Shown here piece by piece: positions 17,596 through 30,434 of a DNA stretch of 64,000 bases. The stretch comes from Hamadaea tsunoensis DSM 44101 (GTDB lineage Bacteria > Actinomycetota > Actinomycetes > Mycobacteriales > Micromonosporaceae). How positions within the stretch are numbered: position 1 is the stretch's first letter; each line of letters opens with the position of its first letter. The stretch is from the NCBI RefSeq assembly GCF_000428945.1, contig NZ_AUAX01000005.1:372001-436000 (forward strand), given 5' to 3'. Position numbers and translations under genes: made by a program. The notes beneath the pieces were generated by a model. That model searched no databases. It was not told the origin of the DNA and worked only from the letters and a program-made list of their open reading frames with translations.

Positions 17596-17829
17596 TCAAT
17601 CGCCGAGGCGCTGCTTGACCTGGACGATGTTCGGGTTGGTCATGGTCGTGCCGTCGGCGAACAGGACGGTCGGCACCGTCTGGTTGCCGCCGTTGACGCT
17701 CATGACGAACTCGGCGGCGGCCGGGTCCCGCTCGATGTCGATCACCGTGTAGCCGATGCCTTCGCGGTCCATCTGGGACTGCAACCGGTGGCAGTAGCCA
17801 CACCAGGTGGTGGAGTACATCGTGACCAT
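17596..17829 (-). CDS. mrx1: mycoredoxin Mrx1-like glutaredoxin
   Basis: 77 residues from ATG 17829 (GGAGG 10 bases upstream; an in-frame ATG at 17865 has no such site). The active site is WCGYC near residues 9-13, and the 'NGGNQTVPTVLFADGTTMTNP' block is characteristic of actinobacterial mycoredoxin 1, which reduces mycothiol mixed disulfides using mycothiol. It is divergent from uvrD2, the arrangement seen around Rv3198A. Cytosolic redox repair role. Confidence 0.93.
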   Translation of the reverse strand: MVTMYSTTWCGYCHRLQSQMDREGIGYTVIDIERDPAAAEFVMSVNGGNQTVPTVLFADGTTMTNPNIVQVKQRLGD

Positions 17830-17898
17830 GGTCGGGAAACCTCCGAGATCGAGCCGGTGTCGCATCAGGTGCTACCCGTAACGTCGCACCGGCCTGGA

Positions 17899-20061
17899 AT
17901 GATGCCAGCTGTGGCGCGTGACTCCGGAGGTTCCCTCCCCAGACCGGACGCCGGCCCGGCCGCATCGCTGCGCGGCCTGGATCCGGAGCAGCTGGCGGCC
18001 GTGACGGCGCCGGCGGGGCCGGTGTGCATCCTGGCGGGTGCGGGCACCGGCAAGACGCGGGCGATCACCCACCGGATCGCCCACCGGGTCACCACCGAGC
18101 AGGTCGAGGCCAGGCACGTGCTCGCCGTCACCTTCACCGCCCGCGCCGCGGCCCAGCTGCGCGAACGGCTCGCCGCTCTCGGCGCGACCGGGGTCGCCGC
18201 GCGGACCTTCCACGCCGCCGCCCTGCGCCAGCTGCGCTACTTCGCCCCGCGGCTGCTGCGCGGCCGGGCGATGCCCGAACTGGTCGACAGCAAGGCCCGG
18301 CTCATCGGCCTGGCCGCCACCCGCGCCGGCATCCGGGCCGACCGCACGACCGCCCGCGACCTCGCCGCCGAGATCGAATGGGCGAAGTCGTCCCTGGTCG
18401 AGCCGGACGAGTACGAGGTGCAGGCGGCCAAGGCGGCCCGCGAGGGGCCGCTGACGCCGCCCGAGATCAGCGCGGTGTTCACAGCGTACGAGCAGGTCAA
18501 GCGGCGGGCCGGAGCGATGGACTTCGAAGACCTGCTGCGCGCCATGGTCTGGGGGATCGAGGAGCACTCCGACGTCGCCGAGCAGGTCCGCAGCCAGTAC
18601 CGCCACCTCGTCGTCGACGAGTACCAGGACGTCAACCCCCTGCAGCAGCGCCTGCTGGAGGCCTGGCTGGGCGGCCGCCGCGACCTCACGGTCGTCGGCG
18701 ACGCCGCCCAGACGATCTACTCGTTCACCGGCGCCACGGCCGCCTACCTCATCGACTTCCCCCGCCACCACCGAAACGCCACCGTTGTACGCCTTGTCCG
18801 CGACTACCGGTCGACCCCGGAGGTCGTCGGGCTGGCCAACCACGTCATCCGGCAGGCGACCGGGCAGGAGGCGCGGCTGCGGCTGGACCTGATCGGCCAG
18901 CGGCCCAGCGGACCCGCGCCGGACATGCGTACCTTCCCGGACGAGGTCGCCGAGGCGAACGCGGTGGCCGCCCGCTGCCGGGAGCTGATCGCCGCCGGGA
19001 CCCCCGCCGCCGAGATCGCCGTCCTCTTCCGGGCCAACGCCCAGTCGGAGGCCTACGAGGAGGCACTGGCCGAGGCGCAGGTGCCCTACGTCGTCCGCGG
19101 TGGCGAACGGTTCTTCGAGCGCGCGGAGGTACGCCAGGCGATGGTCGCCCTGCGCGCGGCCGGCCGCTCCGTGCCAGAGGGGGCCGACGTGCCCGACGCG
19201 GCCGCCGACGTGCTGCGCGGCCTCGGCTGGGAACCCGCGCAGCCGCCGTCCGGCGGGGCCGCCCGCGAGCGGTGGGAGGCGCTGGCCGCCCTGCACCGGC
19301 TGGCTCAGGAGTCCCGGGCGGCGACCCTGGCCGACTTCGCCGCCGAACTGGGCCGCCGCGCCGACGCCCAGTACGCCCCGACCATCGACGGCGTGACCCT
19401 GGCCAGCCTGCATTCGGCGAAGGGGCTGGAGTGGGACGCGGTGTTCCTGGTCGGCCTGGTCGAAGGGACGCTGCCGACCGCGTACGCGAAGACGCCCCAC
19501 GCGGTCGAGGAGGAGCGGCGGCTGCTCTACGTCGGGATCACCCGGGCCCGGCAGTGGTTGTGGCTCAGCCACGGGCAGGCGCGGTCGCCGGGTGGCCGGG
19601 CGCGCAAGCCGTGCCGGTTCCTGCCGCAGCTGACGGGCGAATCGGCGTCGACCGTGCGGGCCCGGCGGGAGGCGGCCAAGGTCGACCGGCGCCGGGCGAT
19701 CGCGGTCTCGTGCCGGATCTGCGGCACCACCCTGCTCGGCGGCGCCGAACGGAAACTCGGCCGCTGCTCGGGCTGCCCCGCCGACGTGGACGAGCAGATC
19801 CTGCAGAAACTGCACGAATGGCGTACGCGGGTGGCGGCGGCCCAGCAGGTTCCGGCGTACGTGGTGTTCACCGACGCGACCCTCACCGCGCTGGCCGAAC
19901 GCCGTCCCACCAGCACCGATGACCTGCTGGCCATCGCTGGGGTGGGGCCGCGGAAGATCGAACTCTATGGTGCCGCTACATTGGCCCTGCTGGGTGGGGC
20001 TGACGTGGACGAACTTACAGTCGATCTTGTCGCCGAAAAAAACTTGGCAACAGAACCGTAA
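17899..20061 (+). CDS. uvrD2: ATP-dependent DNA helicase UvrD2
   Basis: 720 residues. Walker A AGAGTGKT (46-53), motif II VDEYQD, 'GDAAQTIYSFTGA', 'LHSAKGLEWD' and 'LYVGITRARQWLWLS' are all intact SF1A motifs. The C-terminal part has the tetracysteine CRIC...CSGC region and an HRDC domain ('ALAERRPTSTDDLLAIAGVGPRKIELYG'), the two features that define mycobacterial UvrD2. Start ATG 17899; ATG 17902 and GTG 17911 are alternatives, since no strong ribosome site is visible. The whiB7 promoter appears to lie within the last codons. Confidence 0.93.
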   Translation: MMPAVARDSGGSLPRPDAGPAASLRGLDPEQLAAVTAPAGPVCILAGAGTGKTRAITHRIAHRVTTEQVEARHVLAVTFTARAAAQLRERLAALGATGVAARTFHAAALRQLRYFAPRLLRGRAMPELVDSKARLIGLAATRAGIRADRTTARDLAAEIEWAKSSLVEPDEYEVQAAKAAREGPLTPPEISAVFTAYEQVKRRAGAMDFEDLLRAMVWGIEEHSDVAEQVRSQYRHLVVDEYQDVNPLQQRLLEAWLGGRRDLTVVGDAAQTIYSFTGATAAYLIDFPRHHRNATVVRLVRDYRSTPEVVGLANHVIRQATGQEARLRLDLIGQRPSGPAPDMRTFPDEVAEANAVAARCRELIAAGTPAAEIAVLFRANAQSEAYEEALAEAQVPYVVRGGERFFERAEVRQAMVALRAAGRSVPEGADVPDAAADVLRGLGWEPAQPPSGGAARERWEALAALHRLAQESRAATLADFAAELGRRADAQYAPTIDGVTLASLHSAKGLEWDAVFLVGLVEGTLPTAYAKTPHAVEEERRLLYVGITRARQWLWLSHGQARSPGGRARKPCRFLPQLTGESASTVRARREAAKVDRRRAIAVSCRICGTTLLGGAERKLGRCSGCPADVDEQILQKLHEWRTRVAAAQQVPAYVVFTDATLTALAERRPTSTDDLLAIAGVGPRKIELYGAATLALLGGADVDELTVDLVAEKNLATEP
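20036..20049 (+). promoter_or_regulatory. WhiB7-type promoter element (A-tract plus -35)
   Basis: Seven A residues (20036-20042) are followed one base later by TTGGCA (20044-20049). WhiB7 activates its own promoter through an AT-rich tract placed a few bases upstream of the -35 hexamer, so this is the likely start of the whiB7 leader transcript. The -10 is not clear. The element overlaps the 3' end of uvrD2. Confidence 0.5.
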
Positions 20062-20170
20062 AATCGTTTGCGCCGTCTTTAGCAGGCGGAATAACCTTCG
20101 GTCACACCACTTCGAGCGGCGTGGGAAACGCTGCCCGACGACGACGAGAGCAGAGATGGAGGCGAGCCAG

Positions 20171-20500
20171 ATGCTGAACGTGACTTTGACGTCGCAGCGT
20201 CCGTGGCTGGCGTCCCTGTGCCCGTCGCCGATCGGCGCGGTCGCCGCGATCAGCCCGAACGGTGTGTCCTACCTGCCGGTCCTCGTCGAGGGCCACGTCA
20301 TCGGCGGCGTTTCGCCGGTGGCCGCGCCGCGGCCGTATGCCGTCCCGAGCCAGGAGTCCCTCCAGGCCCCGGGCGCCAGCGGTAGCCACGCCACCACTCT
20401 GACCATGATCAAGCCGGAGACCGTCCGGACGCAGGGACTGCAGAAGCTGCCCACGTTCGATGGATTCCGCGGCGTTCCGCCTCGAGGTAGGCCGGTCTAA
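20171..20500 (+). CDS. whiB7 leader ORF (109 aa)
   Basis: ATG 20171 (GGAGG 8 bases upstream; ATG 20156 also in frame) reads MLNVTLTSQRPWLASLCPSP... and ends PPRGRPV-TAA at 20500, between uvrD2 and whiB7. No protein family is recognised. In mycobacteria and other actinobacteria whiB7 is controlled by a translated upstream ORF whose disturbed translation prevents termination. Here the last codons (DGFRGVPPRG) overlap an antiterminator arm, and a strong terminator follows 22 bases after the stop. So its translation, rather than its product, is likely what matters. It is much longer than the short mycobacterial uORF, so a functional peptide is not excluded. Confidence 0.65.
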   Translation: MLNVTLTSQRPWLASLCPSPIGAVAAISPNGVSYLPVLVEGHVIGGVSPVAAPRPYAVPSQESLQAPGASGSHATTLTMIKPETVRTQGLQKLPTFDGFRGVPPRGRPV

Positions 20501-20536
20501 CACAGACCACCGGCACACTTCGAGGCCGCGGAACCC
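20463..20536 (+). promoter_or_regulatory. whiB7 antiterminator helix
   Basis: GGATTCCGCGG (20462-20472, inside the leader ORF) can pair with CCGCGGAACCC (20526-20536) with one mismatch. The second strand overlaps the 5' arm of the terminator (20522-20532), so the two folds exclude each other. A ribosome delayed early in the leader ORF would leave the first strand free and favour read-through into whiB7. Confidence 0.55.
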
Positions 20537-20567
20537 GCACACCGGGATCCGCGGCCTCATTTATTTG
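20522..20567 (+). terminator. whiB7 leader terminator (attenuator)
   Basis: GAGGCCGCGGA (20522-20532) and TCCGCGGCCTC (20548-20558) form a perfect 11-bp stem with a 15-base loop, followed by ATTTATTTG. It lies between the leader ORF stop and whiB7, as expected for an attenuator. Confidence 0.8.
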
Positions 20568-20618
20568 CACCGCACAGCCCTGGGACACCCCCTGAAGGAA
20601 GAAGAGGTGAGTAGGACT

Positions 20619-20975
20619 ATGAGTCTGGCGTTGGCCCCTCTCGACATCACCGTCGAGCTGGGTGCGGAGCTGCCCTGCCGGAAGTTCGACCCCGACCTGT
20701 GGTTCGCCGACGCTCCAGCCGAGCTGGAGCTGGCCCGGGCCCTCTGCGGCGAATGCCCGCTGAAGGCCGAGTGCCTGGCGGGCGCGCTGGAGCGGGCCGA
20801 GCCCTGGGGCGTCTGGGGTGGTGAGATCTTCGAGCGTGGGGCGATCGTGGCGCGCAAGCGGCCGCGTGGCCGTCCTCGCAAGGAGGACCTCGCCCGGGAC
20901 GCCGACCTGCGGGCCGAGACCGTCGCCCGGGTGGCGGAGGTCACCGGCCGCGAGTCGGTACGCCTCGCCGCCTGA
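20619..20975 (+). CDS. whiB7: WhiB7-type redox-responsive antibiotic-resistance regulator
   Basis: 118 residues from ATG 20619 (GTG 20607, better placed behind AAGGAAGAAG, would add 4 residues). Cysteines C20, C43, C46 and C52 bind the [4Fe-4S] cluster; EPWGVWGGEIF (61-71) is the WhiB sigma-A-binding turn, and RGRPRK (83-88) is the AT-hook unique to WhiB7. It activates intrinsic resistance genes with SigA. A 30-residue charged extension follows the AT-hook, longer than in M. tuberculosis WhiB7. Expression is probably autoregulated and attenuated by the leader above. Confidence 0.95.
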   Translation: MSLALAPLDITVELGAELPCRKFDPDLWFADAPAELELARALCGECPLKAECLAGALERAEPWGVWGGEIFERGAIVARKRPRGRPRKEDLARDADLRAETVARVAEVTGRESVRLAA

Positions 20976-21065: not shown

Positions 21066-21221
21066 ATGAATCAGATCAACGGTCTCACCGAGATGTATCT
21101 AATGAACGAAGCGCTGACCCGGGCCCGAATGACGGAGCCTCAGGCCGAGGCTCCCCGCACCGCTCGCCGCATCGCCATGAAGGCGCGCCGCAAGCAGGCC
21201 CGTACGTTGGGCAACCTCTGA
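21066..21221 (+). CDS. small basic protein downstream of whiB7 (51 aa)
   Basis: ATG 21066, preceded by GAGAAGGAAG, opens MNQINGLTEMYLMNEALTRARM... and ends TLGNL at 21221. The first half is a mixed helix and the last 20 residues are strongly basic (RTARRIAMKARRKQARTLG). No family is recognised. It lies 90 bases after whiB7 on the same strand and before a strong terminator, so it is probably cotranscribed with whiB7 and induced with it. Confidence 0.6.
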   Translation: MNQINGLTEMYLMNEALTRARMTEPQAEAPRTARRIAMKARRKQARTLGNL

Positions 21222-30361: not shown

Positions 30362-30434
30362 GGGGACGTGGCGCAGCTGGTAGCGCACCACACTGGCAGT
30401 GTGGGGGTCAGGGGTTCGAATCCCCTCGTCTCCA
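30362..30434 (+). tRNA. tRNA-Ala (GGC anticodon)
   Basis: A 73-base cloverleaf: acceptor GGGGACG/CGUCUCC, D arm GCGC-AGCUGGUA-GCGC, anticodon stem CCACA/UGUGG with loop CUGGCAG (anticodon GGC), T arm AGGGG-UUCGAAU-CCCCU, discriminator A. Pair 3-70 is G-U, the alanine identity determinant. CCA is not encoded. It reads GCC, a dominant alanine codon here. Confidence 0.97.

Follow-up and report, generated by a model that had tools for sequence, protein, structure and literature searches.

We analysed the leader of whiB7 in a 64,000-nucleotide stretch of the 9.48-Mb genome of Hamadaea tsunoensis DSM 44101 (positions 372,001 to 436,000 of contig NZ_AUAX01000005.1; hereafter, the window) and conclude that this locus is very probably a ribosome-controlled transcription attenuator of the whiB7 family. 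An upstream open reading frame (uORF) with its own ribosome site, a Rho-independent terminator and a mutually exclusive antiterminator—the parts by which an attenuator is recognised—are all present, judged by sequence and conservation. This conserved anatomy, together with compensatory changes in the competing folds, supports the whiB7-type uORF/terminator logic that a first-pass annotation had proposed for this DNA. The favoured version is a sensor of translation that would be indifferent to the sequence being translated. The elements of the locus are the following:

17788..20061 (+): uvrD2, a UvrD-like helicase with an HRDC domain, the upstream neighbour (Pfam UvrD-helicase, UvrD_C, HRDC)
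20036..20049 (+): A-rich box plus TTGGCA, upstream of the promoter and not itself the –35 (window sequence, loci read by eye)
20059..20097 (+): WhiB7-type promoter (family conservation; box rule from PMC7157823)
20158..20162 (+): GGAGG, ribosome-binding site of the uORF (sequence, relatives)
20171..20500 (+): uORF of 109 codons, stop TAA at 20498-20500 (conserved frame)
20474..20488 (+): antiterminator 5′ arm, within the last uORF codons (GVPPRG; folding, family alignment)
20492..20514 (+): inner hairpin enclosing the uORF stop codon (folding, family alignment)
20517..20534 (+): antiterminator 3′ arm, shared in part with the terminator 5′ arm (folding, family alignment, class-wide arms)
20522..20566 (+): intrinsic terminator, stem 20522-20558 and T-rich tail 20560-20566 (folding, family alignment)
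20595..20607 (+): purine-rich ribosome-binding region of whiB7 (window sequence; counterpart in relatives, GAGAGGTGACC)
20619..20975 (+): whiB7, ATG start, with a WhiB domain (Pfam Whib, E 5.3e-14) and a weak AT-hook match

Conservation was followed in a family set of 68 loci, composed of 64 named Micromonosporaceae loci, three loci from the window's genus and the window itself; pairing percentages and covariation refer to its 64 distinct sequences. The named whiB7 loci nearest to that of the window come from Catellatospora, Allorhizocola, Rhizocola and Micromonospora (Micromonosporaceae), and whiB7 is 95% identical in the three same-genus genomes. As predicted earlier, a strong terminator (20522-20558, then TTTATTT) stands between the uORF and whiB7, and its pairs are kept in 98.4% of cells. 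Positions 20430-20572, folded whole, form this terminator (–63.6 kcal/mol); when the fold ends at the terminator 5′ arm (20430-20540), that arm pairs with the uORF tail instead (–50.3 kcal/mol). The proposed pairing of the uORF tail with the terminator 5′ arm therefore stands, whereas the register named for it is not the best conserved one: the 11-base helix 20462-20472/20526-20536 contains an A-C mismatch and has 71.3% of cells paired, against 93.4% for the antiterminator 20474-20488/20517-20534 with its inner hairpin included. Since the four inner G-C pairs of the former helix are conserved, a mixture of two registers is possible. The covariation scores of terminator and antiterminator both lie above all 500 shuffles.

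Within the antiterminator, the uORF stop codon itself appears to pair inside a hairpin in many relatives. The 68 family loci use UGA (49), UAG (11) or UAA (eight) as the uORF stop. Opposite UGA stands C in 47 loci; opposite UAG stands U in six loci found by script and one more (L047) identified by reading, spanning at least five genera, and C in four, half of them by script and half by reading, including two of the window's genus. Counted at the second base of the stop codon, the 64 distinct sequences hold GC in 44 cases, AU in seven and GU in one, with 11 unpaired. A Fisher test on stop and facing base (47, 1, 4 and 7 loci) gave p = 7e-6; it ignores kinship, omits UAA (eight loci) and a single UGA locus opposite A, and has a UAG row filled in part by reading. 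A stop codon changes only to another stop, and the compensated swaps are consequently joint evidence for the hairpin and for translation reaching this far.

Outside the family, 158 genomes were drawn class-wide, of which 133 had a whiB7 match and 60 leaders were fetched; 16 named Pseudonocardia-group loci brought this set to 76. A stricter filter for terminator and uORF was passed by 58 of them, while four had no acceptable uORF and 14 were dropped because they had no terminator with a GGCC[AG]CG core. The arms vary by family yet are complementary in many, roughly 17-21 bases before the stop (CCTCGAGG/CCTCGAGG, CCTCGGGG/CCCCGAGG, CCTGGAGT/ACTCCAGG, CCACGGAG/CTCCGTGG and CCCTGGAG/TTCCAGGG). By reading, the class-wide aligner had placed family arms one column out of register, and we therefore used register-free swap tests. 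For 59 of the 66 loci compared, the native uORF tail folded better with its own downstream arm than did the tails of other families (mean z –1.35), and 54 of the 66 folded better than random synonymous versions.

The 109-codon frame (20171-20500) and its good ribosome site, GGAGG eight bases before the ATG, were confirmed. The uORF tail and the terminator occur in 68 of 68 family loci and a complete uORF in 67, the remaining one (L010) being cut by a contig end without its uORF start and excluded from counts of complete loci; in another (L029) we manually reassigned the start to the ATG that follows the ribosome site. All 67 conserve the ribosome site and the position of the stop. In DNA this GC-rich, an open frame counts for little on its own: when the uORF bodies were dinucleotide-shuffled, an average of 21% of trials (19% for the window) came out open, corresponding to an expectation of 14.1 fully open loci out of 67. 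When the frame was fixed by tail and stop, leaving the start unused, the first upstream stop lay at least 96 codons away in every one of the 67 loci (median 142), whereas the other two sense frames reached 79 codons in 12 and nine loci (medians 2 and 37). No in-frame stop occurs in 6,538 uORF codons versus 173 and 94 in the other frames, a count that follows in part from the delimitation of the uORF inside its open frame. One antisense frame is likewise fully open in 58 of the 67 loci, so that openness by itself is no argument; indel lengths are. Among 41 nearest-neighbour pairs, 53 of the 55 uORF indels had lengths divisible by three, compared with 7 of 100 in the 5′ untranslated region and spacer next to it. 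Gap costs that avoid paired one-base gaps gave 53/55 and 54/60 in the uORF versus 7/100 and 10/108 outside it, and a low gap cost gave 46% (71/153) versus 15% (15/102) and 7% (5/72). These indels point to strong selection on the uORF reading frame, with translation through to the stop apparently being selected.

The family uORFs measure 79-181 codons (median 92; 67 loci), and this more than two-fold difference in length arose through in-frame indels. Together with the 58 class-wide loci they make 125 uORFs of 43-202 codons (median 86), whose starts had to have a ribosome-site match, a choice that favours true starts and can misplace them. As all 125 leaders have long uORFs, the earlier statement that the uORF in the window is about ten times longer than known ones fails; long uORFs are the norm. 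Only one other family of the order was listed in the draw (f2, most likely Mycobacteriaceae); it contributed ten fetched and eight filtered loci, seven of them with 45-113 codons; the start of the eighth, at 202 codons, is probably placed too far upstream. In M. smegmatis, a published mutation at 390 bp upstream of whiB7 falls within the uORF, according to the available part of the source (PMC13393426).

The promoter had been sought in A7 plus TTGGCA (20036-20049) at the end of uvrD2. However, no TANNNT-like –10 follows at 16-18 bases downstream, and TTGGCA was ruled out as a –35 because a –10 is absent at the proper distance; the A-rich stretch at this position is widely kept among relatives, upstream of the promoter. 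The conserved promoter begins at the uvrD2 stop codon, overlapping the 3′ end of that gene, about 24 bases downstream of TTGGCA. It consists of a TAAAAT box, the spacer CGT, a –35 TTGCGC (20068-20073) and, after 18 bases, a –10 TAACCT (20092-20097). A scan anchored on GTTTG found this word in 61 of 67 family loci, misplaced in one (L059); when the six remaining loci and L059 were read by hand, a related –35 and –10 were seen in each. Under the WhiB7 box rule, GAAAWY at 3 nt upstream of the –35 (available text of PMC7157823), the box in the window matches five of six positions at the expected spacing and is conserved; it is a candidate site for WhiB7 binding. Since the promoter lies downstream of TTGGCA, transcription is expected to start near 20104 rather than near 20050 as previously supposed, and the leader would be about 515 bases long.

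Some further structures were seen in the leader. A hairpin is predicted at window positions 20112-20138, between the expected transcript start and the uORF, and L046 and L060 have a strong hairpin of differing sequence at the same place. At least four relatives (L013, L024, L032 and L060) carry the inverted repeat GCGATC(C/T)A(C/A)GAGATCG between terminator and whiB7 ribosome site, which was not found in the window. Rfam at its gathering score returned no family over the leader, its only hit in the whole window being a tRNA (30362-30434); the leader structure, conserved in 68 family loci, could become an RNA family model.

Taken as an attenuator, the locus would work as follows. The WhiB7-type promoter would start the leader, and ribosomes would load at the strong site and translate the uORF close behind RNA polymerase. 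A ribosome at the stop codon would cover the antiterminator arm and the stop hairpin, so that the terminator forms and whiB7 stays off; with late translation, or a stall at any point before the stop, the tail of the uORF would pair with the terminator 5′ arm, termination would fail and whiB7 would be made. Ribosome position would decide, translation inhibitors would be the trigger, and WhiB7 would presumably feed back on its promoter. Because the lag behind the polymerase grows with codon number, we tentatively propose that the long uORF serves as a general elongation meter, frame-selected and nearly sequence-neutral, whose length and open frame would carry the information. The gain of such a meter would be set by the number of codons, and any slowing of translation, whatever its cause, would open the switch. 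For L codons and a fractional step lengthening e, the delay would be about L × e × (seconds per codon); a 100-codon uORF slowed by about 10% would then lag about as much as a 10-codon uORF at halved speed. Selection would preserve the length of the uORF and no particular codon; none of the 125 filtered uORFs is shorter than 43 codons.

Several observations weigh against the attenuator, and the step to an elongation meter, itself conjectural, was counted among them. The swap effect is moderate, with only 38% of loci in the best 5% of their own swaps; seven of the 66 loci have no native advantage over swaps, five of them in the Pseudonocardia group, and the z against synonymous shuffles is above zero in four loci of one family (f19). 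Counting loci with at least six switch pairs fails to separate native from swapped tails, as 86% of swaps pass, and native pairing exceeded swapped pairing in 15, 16 and 13 of 21 families over three spans. Seven of eight arm pairs are reached by only 31 of the 58 class-wide loci, and in f2 and the Pseudonocardia group the arm immediately preceding the terminator mostly lacks a match; by reading, the f2 tail can pair directly with the terminator arm. In Micromonosporaceae the arms are near-invariant and covariation is sparse: three of 24 antiterminator pairs are doubly changed, a number reached by 18 of 500 shuffles, and an antiterminator slid by two columns scores 0.027 for covariation versus 0.028. 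Lastly, the 11 of 64 sequences with an unpaired stop-codon pair include the window and its own genus; the UAA of the window faces C, and only its first base is paired.

Whether the uORF yields a leader protein with a function of its own, regulation being secondary, had been raised as a question, and the tentative answer is that the frame is strongly kept but the residues are nearly free, which makes such a protein improbable. In its favour are the frame kept over 79-181 codons and a weak in-frame constraint in nearest pairs (36 pairs, at least 80% identical), where the ratio of non-synonymous to synonymous change (dN/dS) is 0.71 in frame versus 1.07 and 0.88 off frame; substitutions in such pairs are spread near evenly over the three codon positions (260, 306 and 323). 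Across 56 loci in four genus groups, by contrast, the dN/dS of the uORF body is 0.96, 1.00, 0.87 and 0.89 with bootstrap ranges that include 1, while whiB7 has 0.05-0.19 on the same pairs; off-frame readings of the uORF bases gave 0.71-1.01, and the cut on synonymous differences (>0.6) removed no pair. A leader-protein family was rejected as a candidate: the peptide has no match in Pfam or NCBIfam, and a peptide search recovered 6 of 150 family genomes (one of them the window's own, two others at E near 1e-3), although the leader is present in all 68 loci of the other sample. The more than two-fold variation in length also argues against it. The last 14 codons, which are conserved, change little at synonymous and non-synonymous sites alike, as RNA pairing predicts; they are probably constrained as RNA, with the remaining peptide nearly free to change. 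The first-pass annotation had named freely drifting synonymous and helix positions as evidence against its reading. Almost free drift is seen in the codons of the uORF body but not in the reading frame or at most helix positions; it counts against conservation of a leader protein and against any single fixed codon for drug sensing, and leaves the case for the switch untouched.

Sensing of particular drugs or of one amino acid by specific internal codons or an arrest motif is also unlikely, if slightly less so than a functional leader protein. Other leaders that stall ribosomes at defined places are known. Some resistance leaders belong to these, as stated in the available part of PMC12421871. 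The uORFs of f2 contain on average 26% alanine (eight loci) versus 14% in Micromonosporaceae; alanine-rich f2 leaders include L124, L133, L135, L136 and L139. Alanine starvation reportedly induces whiB7 in mycobacteria (Poulton, 2024), a response with which the alanine richness of f2 may be connected; given the 14% here, a weaker response is predicted. Against such sensing, the uORF body has no strong residue constraint among relatives, the uORF translation in the window shows by reading no single-amino-acid run near the stop, and no arrest motif is conserved in the uORF body, where dN/dS is near 1 and constraint is at most weak in nearest pairs. In 11 loci, the uORF body has neither unusual structure nor an unusual lack of it (z –2.7 to +0.55). 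Least probable of all is a terminator that merely ends the transcript of uvrD2 or of a chance ORF without any switch: the promoter does lie where uvrD2 ends, and such a GC content makes open frames common, but a passive terminator would not be expected to show competing folds, compensatory helix changes, covariation at the stop codon or indels that preserve the frame.

The preferred reading, a ribosome-controlled attenuator, is of a kind already known in mycobacteria and Streptomyces; uORF-mediated transcription attenuation of whiB7/wblC is said to have been described by Burian and Thompson (2018) for the former and by Lee, Lee and Roe (2022) for the latter. As far as the available text of four papers goes (PMC11550727, PMC9618640, PMC7157823, PMC13393426), translation of the uORF leads to the terminator and disrupted translation to the antiterminator, and WhiB7 boosts its own promoter. 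Like those leaders, the present one has a ribosome-sited uORF, a terminator before whiB7, an antiterminator and a promoter that is predicted to be autoregulated (see also the accessible part of PMC4128351). Unlike them, as they are summarised in these sources, the Micromonosporaceae leader has family-specific palindromic arms (CCTCGAGG) and a hairpin at the stop codon. The short leader-peptide attenuators of resistance genes, such as are5sc, tiaA and their relatives, likewise let a ribosome stalled on the uORF bring about the antiterminator, and their uORFs can have as few as 3-9 codons (MLV, MVGDDDISG), with stalling at the start codon (excerpts of PMC12421871); the uORF studied here has about 80-180 codons and its body is not conserved. 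Mutually exclusive hairpins set by ribosome position are shared with the ilvB1 leader of M. tuberculosis (PMC13236596, in its accessible part), whereas the codons of one amino acid that cluster before the stop in amino-acid attenuators of this type are not found here, where family alanine content averages 14%. An open-access full-text search, judged on titles and the starts of abstracts, returned no Micromonosporaceae leader and no near-neutral whiB7 uORF evolution, a weak negative as subscription papers lie mostly outside it. A 2025 eLife paper (PMC12121999) states, in the part available, that antibiotic stalling of ribosomes within the whiB7 uORF is untested.

Just 3′ of whiB7, the window holds an ORF of 51 amino acids (MNQINGLTEMYLMNEALTRARM...; 21066-21221, +), preceded by a purine-rich stretch, that looks like a real conserved small protein of unassigned function. 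Among 80 named whiB7 loci, tblastn gave 62 match lines with it at E <= 1e-3, located at about 3.2-3.6 kb in the twelve matches listed; neither Pfam (E <= 1) nor NCBIfam returned a match.

For the problem of how one leader senses many drug classes, a frame that appears strongly selected while its residues are nearly free narrows the options to uORF length and elongation in general, with less room for a special codon or peptide. If true, an elongation meter would explain why a long, bland uORF answers many inhibitors.

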